From Pseudoalteromonas sp. EB27 (GTDB taxonomy: Bacteria; Pseudomonadota; Gammaproteobacteria; Enterobacterales; Alteromonadaceae): DNA of 64,000 nucleotides. The translations under genes were made by a program, and so were the position numbers. The stretch covers positions 1 to 64,000 of the forward strand of contig NZ_MTQD01000006.1 of the NCBI RefSeq assembly GCF_001974875.1, given 5' to 3'. A model generated the notes under the pieces. It was not told the origin of the DNA. It made no database searches and saw only the letters and a program-made list of their open reading frames with translations. Position 1 is the first letter of the stretch. Every line of letters begins with the position of its first letter. Shown piece by piece: positions 302 through 25,156 of the stretch.

Positions 302-314
302 TTGCATTATGCAA
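302..314. promoter_or_regulatory. LuxO/SypG-type activator box (perfect TTGCA-W3-TGCAA)
   Basis: TTGCATTATGCAA is an exact match to the palindromic form TTGCA-W3-TGCAA described for LuxO operators in Vibrio. It is centred about 135 bp upstream of the start predicted from the sigma-54 promoter at 417-432. A related half-site pair with 4-nt spacing (TTGCA-AAAT-TGCA, minus strand) lies at about 350-362. A LuxO/SypG-like activator is encoded at 2745-4157, so self-contained regulation is inferred. Confidence 0.6.
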
Positions 315-416
315 ATAATTTTCTATTAATGCGAATAATAGTCTATTAATGCAATTTTGCAATATTAGTAATTATAAAAAACATTTAAAATCATTGTCTT
401 AAATATAATTTCAAGT

Positions 417-432
417 TGGAATAAATTCTGCT
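417..432 (+). promoter_or_regulatory. Sigma-54 (-24/-12) promoter of the yvcK-like gene
   Basis: TGGAATAAATTCTGCT keeps the invariant GG and GC dinucleotides exactly 10 nt apart and resembles TGGCACGN4TTGCW. The predicted transcript start is near 443, 25 nt before the chosen ATG at 468. The activator box at 302-314 lies at an enhancer-like distance. Confidence 0.6.
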
Positions 433-467
433 TAAGTTACGGTATCTTGAGGTGTCTAGGTTCAATA

Positions 468-1334
468 ATGAAAATAGTCTGTATTGGTGGTGGACATGGA
501 TTAGCACAAGTACTAAGTGCTATTAAACCTATGTGTAAGGAGCTTACTGCTATTGTTGCTACAACAGATAATGGTGGCAGTACTGGTCGCATAAGAGAAG
601 AATATGGTTGTATTGCTTTAGGCGATATTCGTCGTTGTTGTATCCAGCTTGCTAAAAATAATACTAATAATGCCGCTATTTACGATCATCGCTTTGAAGG
701 AGGAGATTTGGATGGACATAGTTTAGGTAACTTGACTTTACTTGCTTTTTTACAATCTAATAAATGTGCCAGCGAAGCAATTTATAGTTTCAATAAAATG
801 CTGGGAAACAATGAAACCGTTTTACCCATGTCAGATTTTCCAACTGATATTATTGCGGAGCTTCATAATGGGGAGCATGTTTTTGGTGAGTGTGCTATAG
901 ATGCATTAGGTGAGCTTCCAAAAAAAATATTTCTTTCTCACGATGTTCCAGCTTCTTCTAAAGCAGTCGAAGCCATCTTGAGTGCAGATTTTATAATCAT
1001 GGGTCCAGGTAGTATTATATCAAGTGTAATGCCTAGCTTTTTAGTTAAAGAACTAGGCGATGCCATACATAAAACATCGGCATGTAGATTGTTCATCGAA
1101 AACAGTGCAGATGAAAATAGTGTTATGAAAACGCTAAAGTGTGCTGGTATAGATTGGTTACAAGAACAATTAGGTCAAAAAATTTACGATTTAAGTATAT
1201 CACCACGAGCCATGCAAGAAATTTTATACAATGGCGAAAAAGTAGAAAATCAAAATAGCCATTTACACGATATTAGTGAGCTTAAGATGATTTTCTCAGA
1301 ACTATTAAAAAACCCTTTTATTGATAGTGATTAA
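468..1334 (+). CDS. YvcK/YbhK-like (CofD superfamily) protein
   Basis: A 288-residue protein of the YvcK/YbhK family, related to CofD phospholactate transferase but without a proven enzymatic role. Bacillus YvcK affects cell-wall and carbon metabolism and binds UDP-sugars. Visible signatures are the N-terminal nucleotide-binding motif MKIVCIGGGHGL, TDNGGSTGRIR, GDIRR, a GHSLGNL segment and a late IMGPGSI motif, all matching Escherichia YbhK in order. I start at ATG 468 because it places GGGHGL at the N-terminus; an in-frame TTG at 447 would add seven unconserved residues. The gene sits behind a -24/-12 promoter and an activator box, and ends convergently with the Hpt gene, their stop codons sharing TTAA. 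Its place in a polysaccharide locus suggests a link to nucleotide-sugar supply, which is inference. Confidence 0.85.
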   Translation: MKIVCIGGGHGLAQVLSAIKPMCKELTAIVATTDNGGSTGRIREEYGCIALGDIRRCCIQLAKNNTNNAAIYDHRFEGGDLDGHSLGNLTLLAFLQSNKCASEAIYSFNKMLGNNETVLPMSDFPTDIIAELHNGEHVFGECAIDALGELPKKIFLSHDVPASSKAVEAILSADFIIMGPGSIISSVMPSFLVKELGDAIHKTSACRLFIENSADENSVMKTLKCAGIDWLQEQLGQKIYDLSISPRAMQEILYNGEKVENQNSHLHDISELKMIFSELLKNPFIDSD

Positions 1335-2744: not shown

Positions 2745-4157
2745 CTATACTTCAACTTTTTCCATTTCTTCCCACCCTTTAATTTTTCGATACAAGGTTG
2801 AGGGGCTTACATCTAATAGCGATGCTGCTTTTGGGATATTAGTAGCACATAAATTTAAAACTCGTTCTATATAATCTTTCTCTGCTAACCATAATGCTTT
2901 TACGTCCTCTTCTTTAAATGGAAGGTCTTCAATATCAGTTGAGACTAACTCGTTAGCTTGTCGATGCTCATTTTCATCATTTGTAGATTTAGTCTTTCTA
3001 GGTAATGAAGGGAGCATGCTAGCATCAACCCATTCACTTTGGTTTAGTACTAAAATATTGCGAATTACGTTTTCTAATTGCCTTACATTTCCAGGCCATT
3101 GATAACTATTAAGCAAGTTTCGAACATCATCTGATAAACCTAGGTAAGGGTGTTCTTCTTCTTTTGCAATTTTGATGAATAAAGCTTCGGCAATTTCAAT
3201 GATGTCATTACCACGATCTCTTAAGGGAGGCATCTCTATCGGAATTACATGAAGACGGTAATAAAGATCTTCTCTAAAACGTCCAGCTTCGACTTCAGCA
3301 AGAGGGTCTTTATTGGTTGCACAAATAAAGCGTACGTTGGCTTTTATTTCTTTTTCACTTCCAACTTGTTGGTAGTTTCCTGTTTGAATAAACCGTAGTA
3401 ATTTACTTTGTAAATTAATATCCATTTCACAAAGCTCATCTAAAAACAAAGTACCGCCATCAGCTTGTCCTGCTGCACCTGCACGGTTAGATATAGCACC
3501 AGTAAAAGCCCCCTTAAGATGACCAAAAATTTCACTTTCGATTAAATCTCTTGGTATAGCTGCACAGTTAAGAGCAACAAAAGGTTTACCAGCACGGTTA
3601 GATGCTAAATGAACAGCCCTCGCGCACAATTCTTTACCTGTTCCACTCTCGCCTGTTATAAATACAGTAGCTTTACTTACAGCAGCTGAACTAATTATTT
3701 GATATACAGCTCGCATTTGTTCTGAACTGCCGACTAAATCATAGTATTTTCCATTTTCATATTTATTTTTATATTTAGTGACTGTTTGCTTTAAATTCTT
3801 TATTTTCAGAGCATTATGCACAGTGATTCTAAACCGGTCAGCCTCAACAGGTTTCTCTATAAAGTCGCTTGCACCCAACTTTATAGCCCGAATCGCCATT
3901 TCTTTAGTGGCGTTACCCGTTAGTACTATTACTTGAGGGCAAGAATCTGAACTTAGTGATTCTAAAATTTCTAGCCCATTAATATCAGGTAAAACCACGT
4001 CTAAAATAATTAAATCTAACTTAGTGTTACCTATAATTTTTTTAGCCTCTGCGCCATTATGGGCTACTAGAGTATTAACACCCGTTGGCATTAGATAAGA
4101 CTGATAAAGCATGGCTAAAGAATGTGTATCTTCAACAATTAATACAGTTGGTGGCAT
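2745..4157 (-). CDS. LuxO/SypG-like sigma-54-dependent response regulator
   Basis: A 470-residue NtrC-type activator. The receiver domain (1-120) has phosphoacceptor Asp53 in ILDVVLPD and Lys102 in IEKPV. The AAA+ domain (about 140-375) has Walker A GESGTGKE, the sigma-54 contact loop GAFTGA, Walker B GGTLFLDEL and an arginine-finger region FREDLYYRL. A Fis-type helix-turn-helix (NIPKAASLLDVSPSTLYRKI) closes the protein. The AAA+ and receiver sequence, including SSKA/ITGESGTGKE and LADGGTLFLDELCEMD-like stretches, resembles Vibrio LuxO and SypG rather than general NtrC proteins. It follows the SypE-like gene after an 87-bp gap. It is the obvious candidate to bind the TTGCA-W3-TGCAA boxes in this locus and activate the four sigma-54 promoters. 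Signal input probably comes through the Hpt protein at 1331-1669. Confidence 0.9.
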   Translation of the reverse strand: MPPTVLIVEDTHSLAMLYQSYLMPTGVNTLVAHNGAEAKKIIGNTKLDLIILDVVLPDINGLEILESLSSDSCPQVIVLTGNATKEMAIRAIKLGASDFIEKPVEADRFRITVHNALKIKNLKQTVTKYKNKYENGKYYDLVGSSEQMRAVYQIISSAAVSKATVFITGESGTGKELCARAVHLASNRAGKPFVALNCAAIPRDLIESEIFGHLKGAFTGAISNRAGAAGQADGGTLFLDELCEMDINLQSKLLRFIQTGNYQQVGSEKEIKANVRFICATNKDPLAEVEAGRFREDLYYRLHVIPIEMPPLRDRGNDIIEIAEALFIKIAKEEEHPYLGLSDDVRNLLNSYQWPGNVRQLENVIRNILVLNQSEWVDASMLPSLPRKTKSTNDENEHRQANELVSTDIEDLPFKEEDVKALWLAEKDYIERVLNLCATNIPKAASLLDVSPSTLYRKIKGWEEMEKVEV

Positions 4158-4244: not shown

Positions 4245-5705
4245 TCAATTGATTATAATTAACGAGGCATCGTCTAATTCTTTTGATAAAATAACTTGAG
4301 AGTTTTTCCAGAGTAGATGAGCAAATGCTTCTTTAGTATATTTCTGAGATGGAATTATTTTCTCAAGTTCAGTTATTTCATCTTTATCAACATAACGATT
4401 ATCTGTCCATCCATCGGTGTAGAGTAGAGTGTGGTGAATATCTGTCAGGCTCGTTTGATACAAATTATAATTATGATTTTTAGATAACCCAAGTAATGGG
4501 CCTGTGCCATTTAACTGTTTAACCTTCCCACTTTGATTTATTACAACCGGAGCAGGATGACCAGCATTTAGCCAAAATAGGGTATCTTCATTTATGTAGC
4601 AAATTATTAATGTTACTAGGCTTGATTTACATAATTGCTGATTATACAACGCATTGTTTAATGCTTTGAGCATATCTTGATAAGGTAATCCTGTAGCTAG
4701 AAAGCCACTTATAAATCCCTTAATAGCAAAGCTCTCTTTTAAAGCTTGCAAACCATGCCCCATCATGTCACCTAGTACAAATGCAGTACCTTCTTCGTTG
4801 ATAGGCATAAAAAAGTCGCCTCCATTTCCTAGGCATATTGAGCCAAAGACATGGGCAAGCCTGTCATTTCCTAACGGTATTTTTGATGGGGTAGATTCAA
4901 AAGCAGTCTGGTAGGATAAATAGGCAAACCGATGAGTCACTCTCTCAAAACTTTGTAGAATTTTATTCTTTTGTACGGGCTTTATTAAATAGTCATCAAC
5001 ACCTAGGCGATTTATTTTACTTATAACTTCTTCGCTATCATCACCTGTAAGCATTATTACTGATAATTGAGATTTTAAATTAGACTTATTAAGTTTCTCA
5101 AGTAGCGGCTCACATGTACCATTTTTTAACTGATGATCTAGCAATAATATACTAGCATCTGATGTTAAAATTGCCTGCCAGCCAGACTCAATATTTTCGC
5201 ACTGAATTACTTGAAATTTATCTTTTAGGTATGCATTCATTAGAGCCAATTGGACAGGGTCATCGTCTACATATATAACAGTAGGGCGTTTATCTATTTG
5301 GTTTAAGGTAAAAGAAAAATAGTTTTTATTATCTTTTGTTATGTAAGTGGCACTACTAAAATAATGACGTATTAGCTCTACACCCATACCACCTTCAACA
5401 AGCTCCCAAGAGTCTAATGTCCATTGAGAGTCATTTTTCTTGAATAAATTATATGCCTTTAGTTCATCAATGATGGTTAGTTCATATTCTTGAGAGGTAA
5501 CTTGGCTGATACGCAAAATGATGCTATGTTCGGAGCCTTCGTTATGCCGAATTAAATTAGTAAGATACTCTGTTGCAGCCAAACCAGCAGCATCAACTTC
5601 TTCGCGTTTAACAGATAGTGCGCCAAGAACATGTTTCAATACTTGTCTAATTTCAGTTAATGTGGGCCATAAAAGTTCAAAGCGTCTTTCAAATAATATA
5701 TCCAT
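4245..5705 (-). CDS. SypE-like RsbW-kinase / receiver / PP2C phosphatase
   Basis: A 486-residue protein with the rare domain order of V. fischeri SypE. An RsbW-like serine kinase ATPase domain (about 1-135) has N-box Glu46 and Asn50 and a GGMGVELI segment. A receiver domain (141-260) has Asp190 in ILLLDHQL and Lys242 in LIKPV. A SpoIIE/PP2C phosphatase domain (280-486) has metal-binding Asp313 in GDMMGHG, NAGHPAP and LLYTDGWTD. In V. fischeri this protein phosphorylates or dephosphorylates the STAS protein SypA, depending on its receiver. All three catalytic centres look intact here, and a STAS partner is encoded at 9381-9689. It starts 7 nt after the SypD-like gene and is clearly in the same operon. 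A weak AT-rich hairpin lies downstream near 4190. Confidence 0.88.
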   Translation of the reverse strand: MDILFERRFELLWPTLTEIRQVLKHVLGALSVKREEVDAAGLAATEYLTNLIRHNEGSEHSIILRISQVTSQEYELTIIDELKAYNLFKKNDSQWTLDSWELVEGGMGVELIRHYFSSATYITKDNKNYFSFTLNQIDKRPTVIYVDDDPVQLALMNAYLKDKFQVIQCENIESGWQAILTSDASILLLDHQLKNGTCEPLLEKLNKSNLKSQLSVIMLTGDDSEEVISKINRLGVDDYLIKPVQKNKILQSFERVTHRFAYLSYQTAFESTPSKIPLGNDRLAHVFGSICLGNGGDFFMPINEEGTAFVLGDMMGHGLQALKESFAIKGFISGFLATGLPYQDMLKALNNALYNQQLCKSSLVTLIICYINEDTLFWLNAGHPAPVVINQSGKVKQLNGTGPLLGLSKNHNYNLYQTSLTDIHHTLLYTDGWTDNRYVDKDEITELEKIIPSQKYTKEAFAHLLWKNSQVILSKELDDASLIIIN

Positions 5706-5712
5706 ATTAGCC

Positions 5713-6417
5713 TCAATGATGTTGAAATAACCATTTTTGTTTATTGATTTTATTTTTTAAGATTTTGCTAAAGCGGGGCCATTTATGTGCACGCTTATCT
5801 ATTGCTTTAACCATACGCTCTCCTAGAGGTGCAAAATTATTTTGGCTAATTAGAATTTGAATATTTTTATGTCCTGCTTGTTTAAGCTCGCTAACACCTT
5901 TACATAGTTCTTCTTCGTCGTTAATACCTAAGGCGACTGTTAACAATGTTAGCTCAGTACACAAACTCAGTGAATGAAGAGGAACATTATTACGGTTTAG
6001 TTTTAAGGCTGGAGACATATCCAAAAGGATATAGTCATATTCTTGTTTCAATCTTAAAATAGCGTCATTTAAAATATGCTTATTTTTAGCTGTTTCTATA
6101 GATTCTATATTGCTTATTGGCAGAATATTAATCCCTTGATAAGCTATTACACCTAATTGGCAAGAGATATCATCGAAGCGCCATTCACCTTGAGTTTTAG
6201 GTAATTGTCCATCTAATTTAAAAGAGTTAAGGGGATTTAAATCAATGACAAGTACAGTTTTATTTTGTGATTGAAGTCGTTTTGCTACGCTCGCACAAGC
6301 AGTTGATGAGCCTTCTGAGCCCATCAGTGAAATGAAAGTGACACAGCGGGCGTTATTATCAATCAGTGTGTTGCAAATGATTTCAAGCTCATGATATTGC
6401 TCAGGAATTAGATTCAT
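5713..6417 (-). CDS. SypD/CpsD-like P-loop ATPase with degenerate Walker A
   Basis: A 234-residue protein in the position of SypD, a cytoplasmic tyrosine-kinase-like partner of Wzz. The fold is that of CpsD/MinD ATPases: an N-terminal phosphate loop at 33-39 reading GSEGSST, a Walker A'-like VLVIDLNP and a Walker B-like YDYILLDMSP. The loop lacks the lysine required for nucleotide hydrolysis in this family (GEGKT in active kinases). The C-terminus (KQKWLFQHH) lacks the tyrosine cluster used for autophosphorylation. It may therefore be a pseudokinase or bind nucleotide differently. Its ATG overlaps the end of the SypC-like gene by 4 nt, showing translational coupling. Confidence 0.75.
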   Translation of the reverse strand: MNLIPEQYHELEIICNTLIDNNARCVTFISLMGSEGSSTACASVAKRLQSQNKTVLVIDLNPLNSFKLDGQLPKTQGEWRFDDISCQLGVIAYQGINILPISNIESIETAKNKHILNDAILRLKQEYDYILLDMSPALKLNRNNVPLHSLSLCTELTLLTVALGINDEEELCKGVSELKQAGHKNIQILISQNNFAPLGERMVKAIDKRAHKWPRFSKILKNKINKQKWLFQHH

Positions 6418-8498
6418 AATCCTACCACTATCGCAATGATTGTTATAAAATCTACAAAATTATCTTTAAATTGACTAAGTAAATCTTGACCTTTATCTGG
6501 TACAAATAATGTATCACCTGCACGTAATACTGGTAAATTAGCTGAATTAGGTGATTTAATAAATTCTTCTAAATCAAAGATACGTGATTGCTCCTTACAA
6601 CAGGAGTGATTAACAACAACTATTTTATCAATTAATGCTGAGCTAGAAGGGCCGCCAGCTTCAGCTAATACGTCTAAAATTGACATGGTATCATCAAAAC
6701 TATATCGCCCTGGCTTTTGAACAGCTCCCATAATACGAACAACACGCTCCTTTGGTGTACGTAACCAGTCTTTATCTTTTTCTGGAACAAAAATAGTATC
6801 TCCTGGTAACACGTTAGGGAATAGTGTTTCATCACCAGTTTCAAAGTACATAGATAGGTTCAGTTTACTTACTTTAGCCTTTTGTCCATTGCGATGAGTT
6901 ATGCGTATGTTTCTAATATCAGCACTTTCATTAGGACCATCAGCGGCAGATAAAATATCCAAAAAGTGCATGTTATCATTAAATGCGTAGCGCCCAGGAG
7001 AACCAACCTGACCCATAATATAAATTGATTTACTCGACTCTTGACGGATCCATTGTGATTTATTGTTTCCGGGATCAACAGGAAGCTCTTCTACAATTAT
7101 CGTATCGCCAGCTAAAAGTTGAGGTAACTGTATTTGGCCATCAGTAATCGTGTACTTTTCAAGGTCGAAACGCTTCGTCACGTCACCATTTCGTACAATT
7201 TTGATGTCATTAATATTTGCACCTTTAGTAGGGCCTCCAGCATGAGCAAGTAAGTCAGTAAAGTCCATTTCACTACTCCATTCGTACCTACCAGGTGACT
7301 GAATAGCGCCTATTATTTTGATTGCTCTTTTAGTTGGGATCTTTAACCAACTTTTCTCATTAACATCTGTTTTCTCAGGTACAAAAATAACATCACCTGG
7401 GTTTAAATCTGGTACTTTAGCTGTTGTAGTGCCTTCACTATAGCTTTGTAAATCAAACAAAATGCTCTCACCTTCCGGAGTGAGTATTTTTATTTGACGA
7501 GTTTCGGCAAAGCGAGTTGGGCCTCCAGCGTTAGCCAATATATCTAAAAAATTAGTACTATCTGCTGCCTCATATGCTCCTGGCTTTTGTACTTCTCCCA
7601 TAATATAAACTGTACGTGAAGTTGTATTTACATCATCGACCATTATTGGTACATAAATAGTAGAGCCTGCTTTTAGCTCAGGCATATTGCTATTAGTAGG
7701 TGTATCTAAGTAAGCTTTTAGATCAAAAATAACAGGTTTTTTATCCACTATAACCCTTATTTTTGTTACATCAGCATAGCGTGTTACGCCTTCTGAACGC
7801 ATAAGTGCGTCTAATATAGACATGTTATCCTTATACGAAAAACTACCTGGATTGTGGACTTCACCTAAAATTGTAATAGCAGTATCATCACTAGCATCAC
7901 CAGTAGCACTAAGTGTTTGTGCGTCAAAGTCAATTTGTACATTACCTAGTAATGGCGAGACAGGAACAAATACAGTATCACCGCTTTTAAGGGGAGGTAA
8001 TAATGTAATATTGCCTGTGTCTAAATAAGCTTTGTAGTTAAACTCTATAACTTCATTACTTCTTCGGATTTGTAAGCGGTCTAATTGTGCACCAGGTTTC
8101 AAACCGTCGGCCTTAGCGATAACCATTTGAATGTTGCCATCGTCAGGTATACTTACTTGAGATGGGTTATTCACGTAGCCTAATATTTTTATAAATATGT
8201 CGCGGCTACTTATCTCAACATAGAAATCATCTATAGCAATAAAAAATTGACCCAATATAGGTCTAAGCTCTAAGGTGATTTGTGCTGTGGTTTTACCTAC
8301 GACATCAAAACGACCAATTTCTGGAATATTGATTTGTCCATTTTTATCAACTTCGAATGGTTTATCAAATTCAGCTTCTCCTGGAACATATAATAAGAGC
8401 TTATTACCAACTTGTACCTCAAAGTCGCTGTCAGATACTAAACCAGCAGCTTGTGAGCTAAAGATAAAAAAGATAAAAAAGATAAAAATACTTTTCAT
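6414..8498 (-). CDS. SypC-like polysaccharide export protein with tandem SLBB domains
   Basis: A 694-residue periplasmic or outer-membrane export component. The N-terminal hydrophobic segment (about 1-18) is a signal peptide without a lipobox cysteine. A Poly_export domain follows (about 25-95, QVGNKLLLYVPGE ... VDKNGQINIPEIG). Then come six SLBB units, each marked by a G-x-V-x-x-PG motif and an L-x-x-AGG-like turn. They start near residues 105, 210, 297, 393, 493 and 587. Typical Wza-like proteins have two to three SLBB units, so this one is long. It ends with a hydrophobic tail (FITIIAIVVGL) rather than the Wza amphipathic helix. It starts 3 nt after the OmpA-like lipoprotein gene and should form the exit channel with it. 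Confidence 0.85.
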   Translation of the reverse strand: MKSIFIFFIFFIFSSQAAGLVSDSDFEVQVGNKLLLYVPGEAEFDKPFEVDKNGQINIPEIGRFDVVGKTTAQITLELRPILGQFFIAIDDFYVEISSRDIFIKILGYVNNPSQVSIPDDGNIQMVIAKADGLKPGAQLDRLQIRRSNEVIEFNYKAYLDTGNITLLPPLKSGDTVFVPVSPLLGNVQIDFDAQTLSATGDASDDTAITILGEVHNPGSFSYKDNMSILDALMRSEGVTRYADVTKIRVIVDKKPVIFDLKAYLDTPTNSNMPELKAGSTIYVPIMVDDVNTTSRTVYIMGEVQKPGAYEAADSTNFLDILANAGGPTRFAETRQIKILTPEGESILFDLQSYSEGTTTAKVPDLNPGDVIFVPEKTDVNEKSWLKIPTKRAIKIIGAIQSPGRYEWSSEMDFTDLLAHAGGPTKGANINDIKIVRNGDVTKRFDLEKYTITDGQIQLPQLLAGDTIIVEELPVDPGNNKSQWIRQESSKSIYIMGQVGSPGRYAFNDNMHFLDILSAADGPNESADIRNIRITHRNGQKAKVSKLNLSMYFETGDETLFPNVLPGDTIFVPEKDKDWLRTPKERVVRIMGAVQKPGRYSFDDTMSILDVLAEAGGPSSSALIDKIVVVNHSCCKEQSRIFDLEEFIKSPNSANLPVLRAGDTLFVPDKGQDLLSQFKDNFVDFITIIAIVVGL

Positions 8499-8501: not shown

Positions 8502-9362
8502 TTACTCCTTTTTCCTTTCTATCACTTTAGTCCAATTCATTAGGGCTTTAACTTTTTTGTTTTGCTGGATACTCTCGTTTGCATCAAGAACTATAGCCTC
8601 CACACGTCTATCTGAGTGGTGAGTTGTCGTACTGTTTGACTCATCGCTATAAGGTTTGAGGCTCCCTTGGGTGAGTGTTGTAAGGCTCTGATTGGGGACT
8701 CCGTATACTTCTAGCCAATGTTTTACAGTATCAGCTCGTTTTAAAGCCAGCTCGTAATTGTTATTGACTTCGCCGAGTGAGTCAGTGTGACCAATCAACA
8801 AGATAGTAACTGAGCTTACCTGTTTTACTAAATCAGCAGCCTGAGCCAAGCGGGTGGCATATTTAGGAGTTATCTCAAACTCATTGAAAGCAAATTGATT
8901 ATCGCTATTAAGAAGATCTGAAACTTGTTTTTTTACAGAAAGAGTGGCTTCTGCAGATGTACTTTCTTCTGCGCAATGAGTGGCTTGTCTAACTAAGCTA
9001 AAGTGATTAGTCAGTTGATTTAAACCATGATAATGGATTAATAAATCATGTTCAGCATCTTCCCACATTTGTGCAGCTATTAATCGACGAATACGGTTCT
9101 CATATATTTGAGATTTAAGCAATTGGGCAGGCATACATGATTGAATATCTTGTGATTTTAAAAGCTCTAGTTTTAAAACAAGGTGTTCGAATTCACTACG
9201 AATAACCTCTTCGGGCTGTGTATAGTTACTGTCTTCTTGTTCATCGTCTAGGGGGTAGTTCTGATACTTTTCAGCCCAGCCACCTTGTCCTTCATCCGGC
9301 CATGAAGCACACCCTCCTAATAATAAAATTAGAGCCGCAAAAAAAATATTGTGTGCTTTCAT
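8502..9362 (-). CDS. SypB-like OmpA-domain lipoprotein
   Basis: A 286-residue outer-membrane lipoprotein. The signal peptide ends in LLGGC with Cys18 as the lipidation site. A helical middle region (about 50-150) follows. The C-terminal OmpA peptidoglycan-binding domain (about 180-265) contains LIGHTDSLG, NYELALKRAD and a late DRRVEAIV, with the Asp and Arg that contact diaminopimelate. SypB holds the same position between SypA and SypC in V. fischeri. It presumably anchors the export channel to the cell wall. The gap to the STAS gene upstream is 18 bp, so they are cotranscribed. Confidence 0.85.
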   Translation of the reverse strand: MKAHNIFFAALILLLGGCASWPDEGQGGWAEKYQNYPLDDEQEDSNYTQPEEVIRSEFEHLVLKLELLKSQDIQSCMPAQLLKSQIYENRIRRLIAAQMWEDAEHDLLIHYHGLNQLTNHFSLVRQATHCAEESTSAEATLSVKKQVSDLLNSDNQFAFNEFEITPKYATRLAQAADLVKQVSSVTILLIGHTDSLGEVNNNYELALKRADTVKHWLEVYGVPNQSLTTLTQGSLKPYSDESNSTTTHHSDRRVEAIVLDANESIQQNKKVKALMNWTKVIERKKE

Positions 9363-15491: not shown

Positions 15492-16199
15492 TTAGTCTTC
15501 CTTTATTTTTTTTACTACTTTTGCAGGGTTTCCTGCTGCAATAGTAAAGGGCGGAATATTCTTAGTTACAACACTGCCTGCGCCAATAATAGCGCCTTCA
15601 CCAATTGTTACACCACCTAAAATAGTAGAACCGGTACCAATCCAAGCACCACGTTTAATAATAATATCTCCAATTTGACTATCATCATCGAGGTCGCCTT
15701 TTGCGCGTCGCTTGCAATCAATTGGGTGTCCAGGAAATCCAGCTAAGAATATACGCCCTGCAAGACGTACATCATCTTCTAGTATTATTTTATCCCCTAC
15801 AGAAAATGCATTTTGCCAACCAATATCAACATTACTTCCTATAGTAAGGGTTGCTTCACGATGAGTGCTTACGCGGCCGCAAAATGTACTAATGCCTGAC
15901 ATTCGCACATTATCAGCACATTCTATATTAAGATTCCCCAGAATTTGTGGCATACCCGAGTATAAATATAAGCCTTTCTTAGTCCCTTTAATTTGGCTTT
16001 TGAATAACGGTGTATAATATAAAATTCGTCCTAATTCACTAATTATAAACTTAACTAAATGGTGCAAACTAAATAGTGTGCTGTGCACATATGGAATAAC
16101 GATCATTTGCGGATTGCGAATATTTTTTGCAAATTGAAATATATTTGCTGCTAAGGGGCTTTCACTGGTTTTTAGCCACCGTTTAAATTTCATCAGCAT
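15492..16199 (-). CDS. Left-handed beta-helix acyltransferase (SypM-like)
   Basis: A 235-residue acyltransferase of the hexapeptide-repeat class. The C-terminal half (about 85-225) is a series of [LIV]-G-x4 rungs, ending in WIGTGSTILGGVTIGEGAIIGAGSVVTKNIPPFTIAAGNPAKVV, typical of CoA-dependent sugar O- or N-acetyltransferases. The N-terminal 75 residues are not conserved in a way I recognise. It probably decorates the repeat unit with acetyl groups. It is one base from the O-antigen ligase/polymerase gene, in the SypM position. Confidence 0.83.
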   Translation of the reverse strand: MLMKFKRWLKTSESPLAANIFQFAKNIRNPQMIVIPYVHSTLFSLHHLVKFIISELGRILYYTPLFKSQIKGTKKGLYLYSGMPQILGNLNIECADNVRMSGISTFCGRVSTHREATLTIGSNVDIGWQNAFSVGDKIILEDDVRLAGRIFLAGFPGHPIDCKRRAKGDLDDDSQIGDIIIKRGAWIGTGSTILGGVTIGEGAIIGAGSVVTKNIPPFTIAAGNPAKVVKKIKED

Positions 16200-16200
16200 T

Positions 16201-17556
16201 TTATTTCTCCTTACTACTATCTACTGCCAATTTTTCGAGTGCGATAGTCAGTGCTAAAATTATATATAAAGGCCATGTAAAGGCTTGTGTTAAAAACGTG
16301 CCAGATACCATAAAACCAATTAATCCCGCTTTTAGAGCATTAGCATTTATGATCACATCTTTATTGTAGTTAACCTTATTTATCGAATATATTCGGGATA
16401 AACTACGATAGATACTGGCAATAAATAATAAAAAAATAAATAAACCTACAAATCCTGTTTCACCTAAAACTTGAAACCAGGTACTGTGTACTGCATGATT
16501 CTTGCCATCCCAATGAGGACTATAAAAATAATAGTTAACAAAAAAATTATTAATACCTACGCCTGTTAATGGGTTAGCAACCCCCATATTTATAGCTGCA
16601 TGCCATGCATAAATACGGCCCATTGCGGATTCATCAACTCCACTTTCTTCTGCTCCACCACTTTGTCTGTCTGAAATGCCTGCAAAGACCATCATAGCCA
16701 TCATGGCTACTGCACCACAAATGCCAACTACCAGAGGATTCTTGACCTTTTGATATAAGAAGAAACTTAAAATAGCTGCAATGCCTAATAGCCCACCACG
16801 ACTTTGTGTTGCAATAACTCCTGATATAGCCAAAATTAAGCCAAATGCAGCAAAGGCTCGGCGAAATTTATGCGTGTTACTGTCAAATAACTCTGCGGCT
16901 AAAAAAGACACAGGAAACATAAGTACTAATGATAGGTCATTAGGATCGCCAAGCTGAGAGCGAATATCGCGAGAAATAGTGACTCTAGATCCTTCAACTA
17001 GGCCTATGCCATTCATTTTGTTACTAAGTGCGACAAGCGCTATGCTTATACCTGAGATCATTATTCCAATTCGAACATAGCTAAAGTGTGAGAAACGAGT
17101 AAGCCACCAACTAATAGCAAATACCATTATAAACACTTTAACGAGCACACCAGACCAGTATTCGATAGCCATGCCACGGTTAGTTGCTGCAAATACACAG
17201 ACCGTTAGCCACACAAACCATATTACAAACACTAAATGTGTTTGGTTCCAATGTGGCCTTAGCTTTTTAGAAATAAATAAATGCCAAAAAATGCCAAAAA
17301 TACTCGCAAGTGCAAGTAATTTTGGAATCTTCAAGGGCATCAAAAATACAAATGCTTCATGTAGCCTAAAGTAACTAAATAAAATGAACAAAATAACAAA
17401 AGCAGTGCTAACTCGAACGGCTAAATAACCGGCAAAAGGGAGTAGTAATAAGGCAAATGCTGCGATGGGCCCAAACATGACATATAAAGCCAAAATGGTA
17501 GTAGTTAATAAGAGGCCATTAATAATAAGGTAATGCTGCTTATACCAGTTAATCAT
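16201..17556 (-). CDS. Wzy/O-antigen-ligase-like membrane protein (SypL position)
   Basis: A 451-residue polytopic inner-membrane protein with about 11-12 hydrophobic helices. A long periplasmic loop carries the Wzy_C signature (PLTGVGINNFFVNYY ... HAVHSTWFQVLGETGFVGL), including the conserved His and Glu of O-antigen ligases and polymerases. It should polymerise the repeat units on the periplasmic side or ligate the chain. Its start overlaps the flippase stop by 8 nt. Whether it acts as polymerase or ligase cannot be decided from sequence. Confidence 0.82.
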   Translation of the reverse strand: MINWYKQHYLIINGLLLTTTILALYVMFGPIAAFALLLLPFAGYLAVRVSTAFVILFILFSYFRLHEAFVFLMPLKIPKLLALASIFGIFWHLFISKKLRPHWNQTHLVFVIWFVWLTVCVFAATNRGMAIEYWSGVLVKVFIMVFAISWWLTRFSHFSYVRIGIMISGISIALVALSNKMNGIGLVEGSRVTISRDIRSQLGDPNDLSLVLMFPVSFLAAELFDSNTHKFRRAFAAFGLILAISGVIATQSRGGLLGIAAILSFFLYQKVKNPLVVGICGAVAMMAMMVFAGISDRQSGGAEESGVDESAMGRIYAWHAAINMGVANPLTGVGINNFFVNYYFYSPHWDGKNHAVHSTWFQVLGETGFVGLFIFLLFIASIYRSLSRIYSINKVNYNKDVIINANALKAGLIGFMVSGTFLTQAFTWPLYIILALTIALEKLAVDSSKEK

Positions 17557-18988
17557 GGGCAGACCTTTCGAACAATGTGTTTAGGGCTGTTCGGATAGGT
17601 GATTTGTACTTTTTAAATAGTGCAGCTGTATAAATTGTAAAAAAGGCTACTTGCCACAATAATAAGTGTTCAAGTTGGCTAATACTCAGTAAGTAAATTG
17701 TGCTAAAACCAACCCAAGATGGTATTAAGCGTTTAATACTATATGGAAGCTTTTCAAGCTTTTGGCTGATGAAAAAAAACAATAAAGTTTTAATTAATTG
17801 TGCAATAAACAGTGCAATAACAGCGCCCAGTATGCCTTTTAAGGGTACCAGTATTACCAATAAGATTAGTGCAGTTAAAGCGCTTATTCCATTGACTGCA
17901 CTCACATAAAACCCATTACGATGTATGTAACATCCAATATTTAGTAAGTCACTGTGATGTCTTAGCACCACAATGCAAATAAGAGAGGGTAGTAACCAGC
18001 TATTTAATAGATAGTTACTAGGCAGAACAAGGGTAAAAACAAAGGGAGTAAGTACAAGCATAATTGTGCAGAGTAATATGCCGATATCTAAACTCAATTC
18101 ACATAAATACACGTAGTTTTTAGGGCAGGCAGAAAGCTCTTTAAAGCGCCTTGAAAACCACCACATTCTGATAGGTTCAAATGTAAATGAGGTCATAATA
18201 GCAAACTGTAATGCTACATAATACTGAGCTAGTTTTTCTTTGCCTACACTTTCGACGATGAACCAGTTTTCTGCGCCATTATTGGTATAAACAAATAATG
18301 AGGACATAATAATACTGCATAAAAACAGGGTATCTTTGTAGCTAATTGTCCATTTTATTACGTTAAAGCTAATTGTTATATTTTTAAGGACAATTGACGT
18401 TGTTACCACTAGTGTAAGTAAACTGGCTAAGATTCCAGAAGCCATAACTCCAGTAACGCCATACCCTAAATACAAAAAAGTAATTGTTATCGTTGTTTGG
18501 CTAATTCCTTGTAAAAGGGCTAGCCATAAGAAATGTTTTGCCATTTCGTAATATCTTAAATAACAAAAAAGAATGGTTAAAGCTGAAGATAAAACTAAAT
18601 TAATTGCTAAAAATTTAATATCAATAGGATTTAAAGCAACAGGTAATAAAGATAGCAAAGGCTCAGTAAACATCAGAGTAGTAATCAAAAATAAACCATT
18701 AATGAGAATACTGAGTAAGATTGAATCCCTAAAGAGTGCAAGTTTTTGCTTTGGGTTAGCTGATTGTTGTTTAAATATTAACTCAGGAAGGCCTAAACAA
18801 AGTAATAGAGACAGGACAGCTGAGATAGAAACCAAAAAATTTAATTCACCAAATTGGCTTTGTGTTAATAGACGAGTAGATATAGGTAATAAAGCAAACC
18901 CGAGCCCTTTAAGGGCTAGTGTAGAGAATCCAAAATATAATACTTGCTTCATTGCGTTCATATCGTTTCCTAGATACTTTGGATCCAA
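17549..18988 (-). CDS. Wzx-type oligosaccharide flippase (SypK position)
   Basis: A 479-residue MOP-superfamily transporter. The N-terminal half has the family pattern LYFGFSTLALKGLGFALLPISTRLLTQSQFGELNFLVS, and about 12-14 membrane helices follow. It would flip the undecaprenyl-linked repeat unit to the periplasm before polymerisation by the neighbouring Wzy-like protein. An alternative in-frame ATG ten codons downstream (MNAMKQ, 18961 or 18952) is possible because the longest frame overlaps the preceding glycosyltransferase by 19 nt. The operon order matches SypK. Confidence 0.82.
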   Translation of the reverse strand: MDPKYLGNDMNAMKQVLYFGFSTLALKGLGFALLPISTRLLTQSQFGELNFLVSISAVLSLLLCLGLPELIFKQQSANPKQKLALFRDSILLSILINGLFLITTLMFTEPLLSLLPVALNPIDIKFLAINLVLSSALTILFCYLRYYEMAKHFLWLALLQGISQTTITITFLYLGYGVTGVMASGILASLLTLVVTTSIVLKNITISFNVIKWTISYKDTLFLCSIIMSSLFVYTNNGAENWFIVESVGKEKLAQYYVALQFAIMTSFTFEPIRMWWFSRRFKELSACPKNYVYLCELSLDIGILLCTIMLVLTPFVFTLVLPSNYLLNSWLLPSLICIVVLRHHSDLLNIGCYIHRNGFYVSAVNGISALTALILLVILVPLKGILGAVIALFIAQLIKTLLFFFISQKLEKLPYSIKRLIPSWVGFSTIYLLSISQLEHLLLWQVAFFTIYTAALFKKYKSPIRTALNTLFERSAHD

Positions 18989-20121
18989 CCAGATAGTTTT
19001 TTAGCTTGCGAATTCGCATTAAAATTACTGGCAACCCAATGCTTGGCATTTGAACCTTTCTCGTAGCGTTCGTAAGGGTTTAACTTACAGAAATCAATTA
19101 ACATATTTTCTAGGCCGCTTATACTCGAAGGTTCACATTTAAAACCTACTTTGTTGTTTACTATTTCTTTCGTACCCATTAATTCAGTTGTAAGCACAGG
19201 TATACCACTTGCCATTGCTTCTTTAAGTACTAGTGGGCCAGTATCTTTGTCACCGTTCTTTGAGATACAAAATGGAGCTATAAGTGCAGAATATTTACTT
19301 GTATTTTTAGCAAGCCAAAGAGGGGCTCTGTGACCTAAAAATCTTACATATTTTTCTATGTTAAGCTCTTCACATAAATATTTGAGGTCGTTTAACATTG
19401 GACCATCACCCACAATATCTAATGAAATTGGGTATGTTTTACTTATTTTCTTCAAAGCAGGAAGAAGGAAGTGCAACCCTTTTTTCTCAACTAAACGACC
19501 AATAAATAATAGTTTCACAGCTTCATTTAAGCGGGTAGGGCTAGAATTAAATAAACTTAAATCAACACCACAGTGAAGAAGCTTTATTTGTCCGACTTTG
19601 TATTTTTTTAGGAAATATTCCATATCTTCGCAAACGGCAACCGAAAAATTACATAAAGAAACCTTTAGCTTCAAATCTGAATCATTGACGTATACATCAT
19701 GACCGTGACCAATTGATGAAATACTAATCTGTGCCAGTCGACTTGCTACTATTGCATAGGCAAGAGGGGCGTGCATAAAATGGCAATGTAAGTGTTCAAT
19801 CTTATGGAGATTAATCACCTCAGCAATATTTAACCCATAACCTAATAATGAAACAATGGAGATGACAGAAAATTTATTTGCTAAAAACCCTCCTTTGATA
19901 GTAGTAAAAGGCTTTTTTAGAGCATATCTTAGTGCTGCAGATATTGATTTATTGATAATAATAATTTCAACACTATTATCTAGATTTGGGCAATCATTAA
20001 GGTTGTCGAAAGTAACTACGCTTACTTTATGTCCAGCTTTAACTAAAGCATTTATTTCAGTTACAACAAAGGTTTCTGATTGAATATGAAAAGTAGGTAC
20101 AACAATCCCAATATGTTTCAT
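18970..20121 (-). CDS. GT4-family glycosyltransferase (SypJ position), first gene of the biosynthetic operon
   Basis: A 383-residue GT-B enzyme. The acceptor domain begins MKHIGIVVPTFHIQSETFV and has a HLHCHFMHAP segment. The donor domain has LLFIGRLVEKKGLHFLL, DIVGDGPML, RFLGHRAP and KEAMASGIPVLTTELMGTKEIV. It is preceded by a 208-bp divergent intergenic region shared with the GT2 gene at 20330. That region holds a perfect activator box at 20220-20232 and, on this strand, a -24/-12-like element with an 11-nt rather than 10-nt spacer. The operon then continues without clear terminators to 9857. Confidence 0.85.
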   Translation of the reverse strand: MKHIGIVVPTFHIQSETFVVTEINALVKAGHKVSVVTFDNLNDCPNLDNSVEIIIINKSISAALRYALKKPFTTIKGGFLANKFSVISIVSLLGYGLNIAEVINLHKIEHLHCHFMHAPLAYAIVASRLAQISISSIGHGHDVYVNDSDLKLKVSLCNFSVAVCEDMEYFLKKYKVGQIKLLHCGVDLSLFNSSPTRLNEAVKLLFIGRLVEKKGLHFLLPALKKISKTYPISLDIVGDGPMLNDLKYLCEELNIEKYVRFLGHRAPLWLAKNTSKYSALIAPFCISKNGDKDTGPLVLKEAMASGIPVLTTELMGTKEIVNNKVGFKCEPSSISGLENMLIDFCKLNPYERYEKGSNAKHWVASNFNANSQAKKLSGWIQSI

Positions 20122-20152: not shown

Positions 20153-20169
20153 TAGCAAGATTTATGCCT
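20153..20169 (-). promoter_or_regulatory. Sigma-54-like element with 11-nt spacer before the biosynthetic operon
   Basis: The minus strand reads AGGCATAAAATCTTGCT. The -24 GGCA and -12 TTGC blocks are well conserved, but GG and GC are 11 nt apart instead of 10. Known sigma-54 promoters do not usually tolerate this, so the element may be inactive, weak, or altered by a base insertion. Confidence 0.3.
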
Positions 20170-20219
20170 ATAAAATAAAGCTAATATCAGTTCATAAAAA
20201 TTCAAATTGCGACGATAAA

Positions 20220-20232
20220 TTGCATAATGCAA
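20220..20232. promoter_or_regulatory. LuxO/SypG-type activator box in divergent region
   Basis: TTGCATAATGCAA is a perfect TTGCA-W3-TGCAA palindrome. It lies about 73 bp upstream of the start predicted for the plus-strand GT2 gene and about 65 bp from the minus-strand sigma-54-like element, so it could serve both directions. Confidence 0.6.
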
Positions 20233-20272
20233 ATGAATGGTTAAAAACCTCGCTAAAAGCCATAAAAAAAAC

Positions 20273-20288
20273 TGGCTCTTAAATTGCG
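20273..20288 (+). promoter_or_regulatory. Sigma-54 (-24/-12) promoter of the GT2 gene
   Basis: TGGCTCTTAAATTGCG has intact TGGC and TTGC blocks with GG and GC 10 nt apart. The predicted start near 20299 leaves a 31-nt leader before ATG 20330. Confidence 0.65.
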
Positions 20289-20329: not shown

Positions 20330-21259
20330 ATGAGCATTGAGATAAGTGTTATAATACCCAACTATAACTGTAAGGCATATCTAGCAAAAGCTATTACGAG
20401 TGTCGTTAAACAAACAAAGGTGCAATTGGAGATAATTGTGATTGATGACGGCTCAACCGATGGAAGTGTAGAGTGGTTAGAAGATGCACAAGCGACATTT
20501 GGACAGTTACGAATTATCCAGCAAAGTAACTCAGGTGTCGCTAACGTTAGAAATGAAGCGATAAAAGCTGCTATTGGGGATTATATTGCATTTTTAGATG
20601 CAGATGATTACTGGAGCGATGATAAACTACATGAGCAGCTTCAATACATGCAAACAAAAAAAGACTGTGTTCTAAGCTTTACAAACTATATGCATGTTGA
20701 CGAAAATTACAATCCCATTGTAGATTGTTACTCTTATTGGCCTGAGTTCTCAGAAAAAATAGACACAGGGGTTATAGGCTTTCAAAACCTCGAAGCGCCT
20801 TTGGGCTTTTTATTATTCGCTAATGTTATAGGAACTTCATCAGTAATGGTTAAGCGGACTGCTATAAACTATGTAAATCGTTTTGATAGTTCATTAAAAA
20901 GTGCAAGTGATTGGGATTGTTGGTTAAAACTAGCCCGAATCGGAAATGTTGGTTTCTCAACAAAAATTTCAATGGACTATTTAATGCGTTCAGATTCTAT
21001 TACTGCGAACAGAACGAACCGCCTTAATGCTATGAAAGAAATAGTGTCCCGTTTTAAAAAAGATGTAAATATAAATACACGATTTAAAGCACAAGCGAGG
21101 ATCCTCGAGTGCTATGCTGAATATTATCGTGAGTTAGGGAAAAAGTTTAAAGCTCTACCTATTGCGCTTACTGCATTTGTGATGTTTCCTCATAAACGAA
21201 ATTTGAGAAGCTTATTACACGATATAAAAAATACTCTTACTTTTTTAATACAGAAATGA
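20330..21259 (+). CDS. GT2-family glycosyltransferase
   Basis: A 309-residue GT-A enzyme with the classic N-terminus ISVIIPNYNCKAYLAKAI, IVIDDGSTDGS, and the DxD-type metal site in AFLDADDYW (about residues 86-94). A later SASDWDCWLKLAR segment corresponds to the acceptor-side ED/DW motif. A strong AGGGAG ribosome binding site precedes ATG 20330. It has its own sigma-54 promoter and activator box and is read away from the main operon, so it is probably induced with it. It ends 3 bp from the convergent EEP-family gene. It may supply a sugar-transfer step performed by SypH or SypI in Vibrio. Confidence 0.87.
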   Translation: MSIEISVIIPNYNCKAYLAKAITSVVKQTKVQLEIIVIDDGSTDGSVEWLEDAQATFGQLRIIQQSNSGVANVRNEAIKAAIGDYIAFLDADDYWSDDKLHEQLQYMQTKKDCVLSFTNYMHVDENYNPIVDCYSYWPEFSEKIDTGVIGFQNLEAPLGFLLFANVIGTSSVMVKRTAINYVNRFDSSLKSASDWDCWLKLARIGNVGFSTKISMDYLMRSDSITANRTNRLNAMKEIVSRFKKDVNINTRFKAQARILECYAEYYRELGKKFKALPIALTAFVMFPHKRNLRSLLHDIKNTLTFLIQK

Positions 21260-22825: not shown

Positions 22826-25021
22826 TTATTCCCCTTTTTCAACAACGCTATTTGCGTTGAATTTATTAAACCATTGTGAGCTTTGTTTACCTGATGATTC
22901 AGCAAATTCGGCAAAGCTTTCATAAGCTTGGGTGATATCTATTCCTTCAAGCGGGTGTTGCCACTGCATACCAATTTCAAGGGCCCAAGGCAGACCATTT
23001 TCAGTTAAAAAATATAGGCCATCTCCGCTCTCGCTTTTGTCATCAGAACCATCTAATGCTAAAAAGCTAGAATTGAAAGCCTCTGTAGGTACTTGATTCT
23101 TAATATGCACCTCCCAGCCTCGTGCTTCTTGGTCAATTAAAAAATCGCCGTGATAAAAACCCTCAGAAGCAAAAATAAATGGGTCTAGCAGCGTACCTGG
23201 TGATGTTGATACCGATTTAGCCGTATTAAGAGGAATTGTCATGCTAAATGGTACGAGGCTATTTTTGTTGCATCCGCTTTCTGTTCTGAAATAACTGCAT
23301 CCAGAGTCGGTTGAAACATAATCCCAAGTATCTTGCATAAAGATTAAAATAGCGTCATTTCTGTCGGCTTCTAAAAAGTCACCGCTTTGTACTTGACCAT
23401 CAATTACTAATGAAATTTTTTGCTCATCGACTTCACTGCGTAAAATTGACTTAGTTTCACCACTATTTAGCGTTTCCTGAAGCCTTACTGCAAACCCGTT
23501 ATGATAAGTTGCGCCTATTCCAACGAGTTGGCCGTCTATTTTGTATCCAATAATAGCGCCACCTTCTATTAGTTGGGTAGTTCTGTAATTTAGTACAACA
23601 TCGTTAAAGTCATAATCGCCGGCATAAGGCCATTTATCTTCAAAGGCAAGTGTTACCCAGTCACTTTCCCCCGGGTATACTGCGCTTGCATATGTTGTTA
23701 TTTGATAATCTTCTACTTCTCCACCTAGCACGCCACCCGTGGCTGTAATTAGTGATGCTTCTGAACCATCTGTAACTCTGAAGCGAGCCCAGGTTTCACC
23801 TGATTTAGTATTCTCTGGCACTGAAATGACAATACTGTTATCACCAGCATTTAGTTGTAGCTTAGTAACTGTGCGCTCATCTTCGGTAAACGCACCGTTT
23901 TGATCCCAATCGAACCATGCGTATAAATAACCTTCAGCCGATGCATTAACAATTATTTGTGAATCTTGCCCTGCGGAAATTGCAGTAACAAAGCTTACGC
24001 CATCATCTGAACTATCAATTGGGGAGTCTTCTAAGTCAGTTTCGAAATTAATATTTTCACCATCAACTGTTGCACCTAAATAAATTAAATTGGCATTGGT
24101 GTTGTCAGGAGCAAATAAGTGACGTGCGCCACTTTTTTCTAAACTTGTATTATATGGGCTTGGTGCATCTCCAAAATCAATTGAGCTATCCGTAACTTTA
24201 ACTTCTGCTATAGCACAACGGGCCCCATCGTTTTGGCTAGATTTTGGGCCAGAGGTAAATACATTTGCTACTGGGGTATACCCTACAACTGGGCTTACAC
24301 TTAAATCAACTTTATGAATTTTACCGCTGCTATTATTACTAAAATAAAACTGACCATTAATATCAAAGTAGGCTGCACCAAATGCACCAGAGTCATCTCC
24401 AATATCTAATTGAGTAATAAACTTTGTGGTGTTGGTAGTTACATTAACTTCATGTAAGTCACCGTTGCTTTCAACAGCATACAATAGGTTGCTAGTCGGG
24501 TGAAAAGCAAAATCGAAAATACCTAGCTTCCAACTGTTACTGCCATTAGCAAGTTTGGCAGTAATTGTTTCATTTAAATCGCCATCAAGATTAACTGAAT
24601 ACAAGCCAAAACTAGGTGTATAAACATAGTAAGTTGCACTTTGATTACCATCCTCGCCTGTAACCTGAATATCACCAACGTAAAAGTTTGTATCTGGCAA
24701 ACCTTCTACTGTAAGGCGTTTCATTTCATAATCGCTACCAATTTGTACAACACTTTTAGGTGATTGACGGCTGAACCCATACATGTACTGGTCTTTATAG
24801 TTAAACCCGACGGCATTTACGCTCTCACCATTTGCTTCATCTTCAAATGTAAGGCTTGAAGCAAGTACAGTTGGTTTAGCTGACACTAGATCGATACCGT
24901 AAAGTTGTGCGTTAGAATTTTGCATTAGAAAGGCTTGGCTCGGACATTCATCAAATGCTTGTCCAAAAGCTGTGCATGGAATTAAAGCTATGCAGACTTT
25001 AGCTAGTTGGATGAGTTTCAT
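22826..25021 (-). CDS. Secreted LruC-domain protein (matrix-protein candidate)
   Basis: A 731-residue secreted protein. A signal peptide (MKLIQLAKVCIALIPCTAFG) is followed by a beta-propeller-like region of about 260 residues resembling DUF6923-type repeats. A domain ending in the GEVEDY motif (about 434-439) is next, then a C-terminal LruC/DUF4842 domain marked by GDYDFNDVVLNYR (about 468-480). GEVEDY and LruC domains are common in large surface or secreted proteins of marine bacteria. ATG 25021 (or 25024) follows a GAGGG site; the longest frame, to 25060, would begin upstream of the predicted transcription start. It has its own sigma-54 promoter and two activator boxes, which ties it to the polysaccharide regulon. 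Confidence 0.82.
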   Translation of the reverse strand: MKLIQLAKVCIALIPCTAFGQAFDECPSQAFLMQNSNAQLYGIDLVSAKPTVLASSLTFEDEANGESVNAVGFNYKDQYMYGFSRQSPKSVVQIGSDYEMKRLTVEGLPDTNFYVGDIQVTGEDGNQSATYYVYTPSFGLYSVNLDGDLNETITAKLANGSNSWKLGIFDFAFHPTSNLLYAVESNGDLHEVNVTTNTTKFITQLDIGDDSGAFGAAYFDINGQFYFSNNSSGKIHKVDLSVSPVVGYTPVANVFTSGPKSSQNDGARCAIAEVKVTDSSIDFGDAPSPYNTSLEKSGARHLFAPDNTNANLIYLGATVDGENINFETDLEDSPIDSSDDGVSFVTAISAGQDSQIIVNASAEGYLYAWFDWDQNGAFTEDERTVTKLQLNAGDNSIVISVPENTKSGETWARFRVTDGSEASLITATGGVLGGEVEDYQITTYASAVYPGESDWVTLAFEDKWPYAGDYDFNDVVLNYRTTQLIEGGAIIGYKIDGQLVGIGATYHNGFAVRLQETLNSGETKSILRSEVDEQKISLVIDGQVQSGDFLEADRNDAILIFMQDTWDYVSTDSGCSYFRTESGCNKNSLVPFSMTIPLNTAKSVSTSPGTLLDPFIFASEGFYHGDFLIDQEARGWEVHIKNQVPTEAFNSSFLALDGSDDKSESGDGLYFLTENGLPWALEIGMQWQHPLEGIDITQAYESFAEFAESSGKQSSQWFNKFNANSVVEKGE

Positions 25022-25055
25022 CATGTTACCCTCATTGGTTAAGTAGTGATACGGT

Positions 25056-25071
25056 TGCATGCTTCATTCCA
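25056..25071 (-). promoter_or_regulatory. Sigma-54 (-24/-12) promoter of the LruC operon
   Basis: The minus strand reads TGGAATGAAGCATGCA, with GG and GC exactly 10 nt apart. The predicted start near 25045 is about 24 nt upstream of the chosen ATG. Confidence 0.6.
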
Positions 25072-25122
25072 TAATTTAATCATTTGATTTATATGACTTT
25101 TATTTTAACTTCAGTTTGAATA

Positions 25123-25156
25123 GTGCAATTTGCAATCGATATATTGCAAATTGCAA
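25123..25156. promoter_or_regulatory. Pair of LuxO/SypG-type activator boxes upstream of the LruC operon
   Basis: TTGCAAATTGCAA at 25144-25156 is a perfect TTGCA-W3-TGCAA palindrome. GTGCAATTTGCAA at 25123-25135 matches at 12 of 13. Centres are 21 bp apart, two helical turns, and about 84 and 105 bp upstream of the predicted start. The remaining sequence up to 25410 shows no gene. Confidence 0.65.

Follow-up and report, generated by a model that had tools for sequence, protein, structure and literature searches.

The window analysed here covers the opening 64 kb of the 242-kb contig C33 in Pseudoalteromonas sp. EB27, whose genome comprises 4,525,005 bases in 36 contigs, and it contains a syp-type polysaccharide locus along with four perfect copies of the palindromic box TTGCA-W3-TGCAA. 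Genes for STAS, OmpA, SLBB, ATPase and HATPase-REC-SpoIIE proteins stand in the order that marks a syp locus, an order kept in relatives, and behind them lies the gene of a LuxO/SypG-like regulator, here called EBP-A. We propose that the four boxes are enhancers from which EBP-A would activate sigma-54 promoters of the whole locus and of the yvcK-like, GT2 and LruC genes, and from the sequence evidence we give this reading a probability of about 0.85. The genes concerned, called by simple heuristics, are as follows.

447..1334, + strand: YvcK/CofD-like protein (PF01933; TIGR01826 at 240 bits, cut-off 196); likely true start ATG 468
2745..4157, - strand: EBP-A, a response regulator with sigma-54 AAA+ domain (GAFTGA) and Fis-type helix-turn-helix (HTH), LuxO/SypG-like; the proposed box reader
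4245..5705, - strand: SypE-like protein (HATPase-REC-SpoIIE)
5713..6417, - strand: SypD-like ATPase
6414..8498, - strand: SypC-like polysaccharide export protein (SLBB)
8502..9362, - strand: SypB-like OmpA-domain protein
9381..9698, - strand: STAS protein resembling SypA, encoded first in the sypA-E-EBP operon
9857..20121, - strand: large eight-gene operon (GT1, Wzx, Wzy, hexapeptide transferase, GT1 with a weak match, Wzz-like, GT1, GT2-sugar transferase)
20330..21259, + strand: GT2 glycosyltransferase
22826..25060, - strand: LruC-domain protein, probably starting at 25024 or 25021; N-terminus signal-peptide-like by eye

The boxes themselves, perfect and degenerate, are distributed as follows.

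302..314: box 1, perfect, TTGCATTATGCAA, before the yvcK-like gene
9836..9848: box 2, perfect, before the sypA operon
9804..9816: degenerate second box near the sypA box, two mismatches, read directly
14257..14269: box with one mismatch in the leader of Wzz; in four relatives read (loci L165, L173, L186, L194) it is perfect
20220..20232: box 3, perfect, common to two divergent predicted sigma-54 promoters
25144..25156: box 4, perfect, before LruC
25123..25135: second LruC box, one mismatch

An earlier sequence-only reading had reported the four perfect boxes at these coordinates, all of them between genes, with near copies beside two of them, and had judged them beyond chance despite the AT-richness of the DNA. 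All of this is borne out: the boxes are intergenic, the near copies have one mismatch (25123-25135) and two mismatches (9804-9816), and 100 dinucleotide-preserving shuffles of the window give an expectation of 0.11 perfect boxes, with no shuffle holding more than 2. With at most one mismatch the window has seven sites against 1.9 expected. A genome-wide scan found only seven perfect boxes in the entire genome, four in the window, two on contig C35 (which encodes EBP-B, a second LuxO-like activator) and one on contig C13, compared with two matches to the reversed control pattern; the probability that at least four of the seven fall within 64 kb is 1.4e-6. When one mismatch is allowed, the genome has 54 sites and the control pattern 53, so that one-mismatch sites genome-wide are mostly at background level. 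As additional members of a regulon they were rejected, for among the 44 outside the window, 41 of which were read, 13 are intergenic and two have a sigma-54 element scoring at least 17, both at the EBP-B locus. The letters of the arm stand out as well. Compared with the 59 other permutations of its letters, TTGCA yields 23 boxes in 17 of 22 Pseudoalteromonas regulator loci (next best permutation, 2) and 19 boxes in 15 of 58 other regulator loci (next best, 3).

Next to these boxes we predict the following sigma-54 elements, scored by a simple heuristic against TGGCAYR-N4-TTGCW, for which the maximum is 21.5.

416..431, + strand: TTGGAATAAATTCTGC, yvcK-like gene, score 18.5
9729..9744, - strand: CTGGCATCCTTCTTGT, GG-N10-GT, sypA, score 18.0
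14338..14353, - strand: TTGGCTCAACTTCTGC, internal element before Wzz, upstream of the 14257 box
20155..20170, - strand: TAGGCATAAATCTTGC, leftward element of the large operon, score 20.5, missed by the sequence-only reading
20272..20287, + strand: CTGGCTCTTAAATTGC, GT2, score 18.0
25057..25072, - strand: ATGGAATGAAGCATGC, LruC, score 18.5

The four -24/-12 elements reported earlier are present to within one base of where they had been placed, except that the sypA element is GG-N10-GT and not GG-N10-GC; related sypA loci likewise lack GC in their GG-N10 element. The -12 region of sypA is TTGT or another non-GC form in those Pseudoalteromonas loci that have an element, and TGC in the six Vibrio-type sypA promoters considered below. 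The spacing of 70-135 bp between box and element also stands for three boxes (about 104, 94 and 74 bp to the GG), the third box being closer, at about 42 bp. It is at this third box, 20220, that the leftward element outscores the rightward GT2 element. In all six relatives with a perfect box at the orthologous position (L161, L164, L170, L180, L185, L195) an element lies on both sides, approximately 42-52 bp off; a perfect box at this position was not found in two of the eight other genomes read (G041 and G054) that carry a regulator of EBP-A type (A-type genomes). With this leftward promoter predicted, each of the two long operons, and with them the gene of EBP-A itself, would lie behind a box, and control of the whole locus becomes more plausible than the sequence-only reading could show.

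Taken by itself, the loose sigma-54 pattern falls short of significance in the window, with 4 occurrences against an expected 2.68; it is the pairing with boxes, together with conservation, that lends significance. Pairing was counted when an element scoring at least 17.5 lay 30-140 bp from a box and before a gene, using 69 perfect boxes among the matches listed for 16 regulator-bearing genomes of the genus (one of the two boxes of G061 was left out). An element accompanies 33 of the 54 intergenic boxes, compared with 88 of 2760 random intergenic points (3.2%). Seven genomes without the regulator have an element at two of eight intergenic boxes, both in G043, a genome that has the EBP-B locus but a truncated regulator in it. 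These counts bear on the idea that the boxes belong to a regulator independent of sigma-54, with the -24/-12 elements coincidental. Such an idea could draw on the lack of enrichment of sigma-54-like strings by themselves and on boxes lacking an element (for example C35:9807 and the orthologous box in L204), but the excess of pairing over random points, the conserved sequence and spacing at orthologous promoters, and the occurrence of the same box-element pair next to Qrr genes make it very unlikely.

At sypA, GT1/GT2, LruC and yvcK the box lies, by sequence, on the upstream side of the -24 element, where a sigma-54 enhancer is usually found, so that each would qualify as an activator site upstream of a -24/-12 promoter. 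If the boxes were instead mainly repressor or autoregulatory sites of the LuxO-like protein, one could point to the boxes that precede the HPt-EBP-B operon and have no sigma-54 element, and to those between promoter and start codon before Wzz; set against the upstream position at the four promoters just named, we consider this highly improbable. The Wzz gene has a predicted internal promoter with the box downstream of it, in the leader, and this pair is conserved in relatives.

Conservation extends to each of the principal targets. A box with at most one mismatch lies upstream of sypA in 21 of 21 loci (16 of them perfect), upstream of the yvcK-like gene in 15 of 19 and upstream of LruC orthologues in 11 of 14, the window being included in each case; the background is 2-3% in shuffles and 0 of 82 in control upstream regions (sypB, sypC, sypE and the GT2-transferase gene of the same loci), which are mostly coding sequence. 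Elements scoring at least 16.5 occur at -27 to -34 of yvcK in 17 of the 19 loci listed (not in L042 and L056; L046 was dropped as too short) and at -44 to -55 of sypA in 19 of 21 Pseudoalteromonas loci, window included (not in L041 and L057, although a separate reading of L057 has the sypA element). All 14 LruC upstream regions, from five families and including that of this genome, have a box with 0-2 mismatches, a condition met by 17% of shuffles, and 13 of the 14 have an element of at least 16.5. Element sequence and spacing are conserved at orthologous promoters.

The LruC gene also shows that the association does not depend on proximity. In G001, G056 and G059 a distance of over 100 kb separates it from the regulator, yet box and element are kept, and the link therefore acts in trans. 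Among 31 genomes, LruC (above 400 bits, a limit which, like those of the regulator classes, was chosen once the scores were seen, and which weakens our case to that extent) is found in 14 of 15 with an A-type, C-type or other high-scoring LuxO-like regulator and in none of the 16 others (Fisher 5.7e-8, on related genomes). The 16 include four genomes whose only regulator is of EBP-B type, and one weak LruC match, in G017 at 58 bits. LruC is likely to be secreted, and likely to be a matrix protein tied to this system.

By its place in the syp-type locus EBP-A corresponds to SypG, with no sypF next to it. In Vibrio the hybrid kinase gene sypF stands between sypE and sypG; here no sypF was found between sypE and the EBP-A gene, which follows sypE after a gap of 87 bp, and no luxU-like gene adjoins EBP-A in the window. 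The closest named relatives of the protein are from Pseudoalteromonas. Its best NCBIfam model is LuxO (NF041946), at 610 bits and below the cut-off of 800, so that it does not rank as a LuxO equivalog (seven LuxO proteins above the cut-off score 852-867), and of the proteins with solved structures LuxO (5EP0) matches its sequence best. The architecture of LuxO, REC followed by a GAFTGA-bearing AAA+ domain and a Fis HTH, is present together with the box TTGCAW3TGCAA. The HTH is NIPKAASLLDVSPSTLYRK in EBP-A, NIPRAAGFLDVSPSTIYRK in LuxO, NIPLAAAYLGVSASTIYRK in EBP-B, NVLNAAVLLELSPSTVYRK in Vibrio SypG and NIPTAAHYLQISAATIYRK in the Oceanospirillaceae proteins, with the recognition helix SPSTLYRK in EBP-A, SPSTIYRK in LuxO and SASTIYRK in EBP-B. 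A phylogenetic tree was rejected as the means to decide between SypG and LuxO, since placement with LuxO has a support of 37 and placement with SypG an approximately unbiased (AU) test p of 0.221. A grouping of EBP-A with SypG, the Oceanospirillaceae proteins and a set of "Other" sequences is rejected (p 0.0001), a result that is uninformative in that "Other" includes Shewanella-like proteins.

Comparison with Vibrio clarifies what is shared. In Vibrio LuxO-qrr systems, according to the accessible parts of the reports, the 13-bp box likewise lies within about 60-100 bp of a sigma-54 promoter (PMC11443567, PMC3352281, PMC10162802), the activator architecture is the same and the recognition helix nearly so; unlike there, the predicted targets here are polysaccharide and surface-protein genes and not Qrr RNAs, the LuxO model gives 610 bits, short of the 800 cut-off, and no luxU-like gene is adjacent. 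As a positive control, six of the seven loci with LuxO above the cut-off have a perfect box with a 20.5-score element 61-63 bp away, and Qrr was found in four of five such loci scanned. In the present genome the Qrr model (RF00378) has no match, which removes both Qrr control as a mark of LuxO function and Qrr as a hidden target; in 21 genomes there was no match above the cut-off and one below it (G003, 36 bits). An Rfam match to HPnc0260 at 30084-30215 of the window, barely above the cut-off and antisense over a tRNA gene, is probably spurious.

SypG-syp of V. fischeri, ScvE-scv of V. parahaemolyticus and RbdG-rbd of V. vulnificus, as far as the available descriptions go, resemble this locus in having the regulator gene after sypA-E and in their sigma-54 control, which is known for syp/scv loci in Vibrio (PMC8941931, PMC10162802); scv/syp-like loci are also on record from other genera including Pseudoalteromonas (PMC8941931, in the part seen). 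The operators differ. Upstream of sypA, four of six Vibrio-type SypG loci have TTCTCA-W3-TGAGAA and the other two a near form, as the sequence-only reading had supposed in stating that the Vibrio syp enhancer takes another form; one of the six (L096) is Vibrio and the others are Vibrio by inference from a LuxO above the cut-off. All six have 20.5-score elements at sypA, and their loci contain no perfect LuxO box. Here the upstream region of sypA is of the TTGCA type and does not carry the Syp enhancer motif TTCTCANNNTGMDWN, as given in the accessible text of PMC10162802, no sypF intervenes, and the HTH differs (NVLNAA... in Vibrio SypG against NIPKAA...). An exact TTCTCAW3TGAGAA was absent from all 19 Pseudoalteromonas genomes searched, with 0 copies in the present genome. 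Eight Oceanospirillaceae-type loci have TTCGCA forms (four), TTCTCA (two) or neither (two, L099 and L112), and the HTH hardly differs between their TCGCA and TCTCA loci, so that HTH residues were rejected as the sole cause of operator type. The PrsK/PrsR PEP-CTERM regulon (PMC1569441, as far as its text was available) is alike in joining a sigma-54 response regulator to dispersed exopolysaccharide-associated genes through a conserved upstream motif; it differs in activator family (EBP-A scores 610 with the LuxO model and 357 with PEP_resp_reg), and of its motif the available text mentions TTTACA, the likeness drawn here being one of arrangement.

The earlier suggestion that the pairing of site and regulator might be undescribed survives in part. 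At qrr1 of V. fischeri, TTGCAWWWTGCAA sites are acted on by SypG as well as by LuxO, according to the accessible text of PMC10162802, so that a SypG-type protein at this box is not wholly new. In the portions of the literature that our search reached, no report placed the box either outside Vibrio or at a locus of syp type, and the four papers that spell it out, including PMC8911003, all concern Vibrio, as their titles or contents show. Vibrio thus already provides the box, the activator type and the sigma-54 control of syp/scv, whereas the predicted use of the box at a syp-type locus, outside Vibrio, would be new as far as that search goes.

The main complication comes from EBP-B, which is 45% identical to EBP-A. 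Its locus (L038, on C35, 2968-11676) has an HPt gene followed by EBP-B, with an EAL protein, a hybrid kinase operon and a 96-aa small protein, each behind a perfect box or a box with one TCGCA half; at L039 (on C13, 6204-9598) boxes stand before an operon for a secretin and before a 141-aa small protein, the element there being near consensus (TTGGCACG-N4-TCGC). Neither small protein has a match in Pfam. The two activators of this genome probably share one site. One could therefore suppose that the window boxes are read mainly by EBP-B and not by the 2745-4157 protein, given its own perfect boxes at the EAL and HPt-EBP genes and its similar recognition helix. However, EBP-B is absent from 36 of the 37 A-type genomes among 108 surveyed, and the eight other A-type genomes that were read have a perfect box at sypA in seven cases and at GT1/GT2 in six. 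In the four B-only genomes read the boxes are at B's own orthologous targets, though not at every target in each (a receiver/sensor operon, the 96-aa and 141-aa small proteins, the EAL protein, HPt-EBP-B and the secretin operon), and LruC is absent from all four B-only genomes in the LruC survey. We regard EBP-B as an unlikely principal reader. The earlier claim that the 2745-4157 protein drives the whole locus is favoured by its place in the locus, its LuxO-like HTH, the retention of box and element at the targets and the leftward promoter; that it would do so alone is less certain, the boxes of EBP-B being of the same form.

Across the genus, the number of boxes follows the presence of a regulator. 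A-type genomes (37 of 108) have a mean of 3.97 boxes (control pattern 1.95), B-type genomes (12 of 108) 3.33, C-type genomes (24 of 108) 3.54 (control 1.29), and those without a regulator (35 of 108) 1.20 (control 1.31). The difference between the 73 genomes with and the 35 without a regulator has a Mann-Whitney p of 2.4e-9, although the genomes are kin to one another, so that this and the other p-values of the survey are overstated and count for less in our favour. The three types are nearly mutually exclusive; A and B occur together only in the genome of the window (chance of at most one overlap, 0.026). In five of five B and five of five C proteins checked (L009, L143-L150, L260) the sigma-54 contact loop is GAFSGA and not GAFTGA.

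Several further observations weigh against activation by EBP-A through these boxes. Among the 22 Pseudoalteromonas loci, five are without a perfect box (L040, L043, L045, L059, L070), four of them having a one-mismatch site before sypA and L059 no sypA match. By score, 21 of the 54 intergenic boxes have no element, among the boxes of the present genome C35:9807 has none, and 15 of the 69 boxes are inside genes. The control pattern also differs slightly with regulator presence (p = 0.02), the B-only genomes have no more boxes than control matches (3.33 vs 4.33), and among the 24 C-type genomes the nine with the lowest scores hold just 0-2 boxes each. G003 has regulator A, and LruC was not found in it. 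EBP-B could act on the window boxes too. Finally, luxO of Pseudoalteromonas isolates has been treated as a quorum-sensing regulator (PMC6275029), which leaves room for quorum input; the words sigma and Qrr do not appear in the main text of that paper, so far as it was available.

With these points taken into account, we still favour EBP-A as the activator. It would act from the four boxes on sigma-54 RNA polymerase at five predicted promoters, the genome having one rpoN gene, and a single phosphorylation signal would switch on the syp-type polysaccharide locus, the yvcK-like gene, the GT2 gene and the LruC protein. EBP-A may bind the boxes as a phosphorylated oligomer, loop to the promoter and hydrolyse ATP to open it, and with its gene last in the sypA operon it would activate its own operon as well. 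The signal may enter through a histidine kinase or an HPt. EBP-B, behind the HPt gene on C35, would read the same boxes, and cross-talk would be expected.

In V. fischeri the syp promoters respond to SypG only, and the cause is left open in the accessible part of PMC10162802; the divergence of the operators suggests one possible cause. More tentatively, and at rather less than even odds, we envisage that syp-type loci share a family of sigma-54 activators whose operator has changed one base at a time while its CA-W3-TG core stayed fixed, with the half-sites TTGCA in Pseudoalteromonas and Vibrio qrr, TCGCA or TCTCA in Oceanospirillaceae, and TCTCA in Vibrio syp. The change in operator and HTH would insulate Vibrio syp from LuxO, while Pseudoalteromonas, without LuxO-Qrr, would keep the LuxO box as a general switch for the biofilm matrix, its core target outside the locus being the likely secreted LruC protein, and the genome with both A and B would be a natural case of uninsulated cross-talk. 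If the main reading holds, the LuxO box would not be confined to quorum sensing, and a broader group of activators of biofilm formation in marine Gammaproteobacteria would use it; the present locus gives a list of targets and a comparison for testing how Vibrio separates its syp promoters from LuxO.

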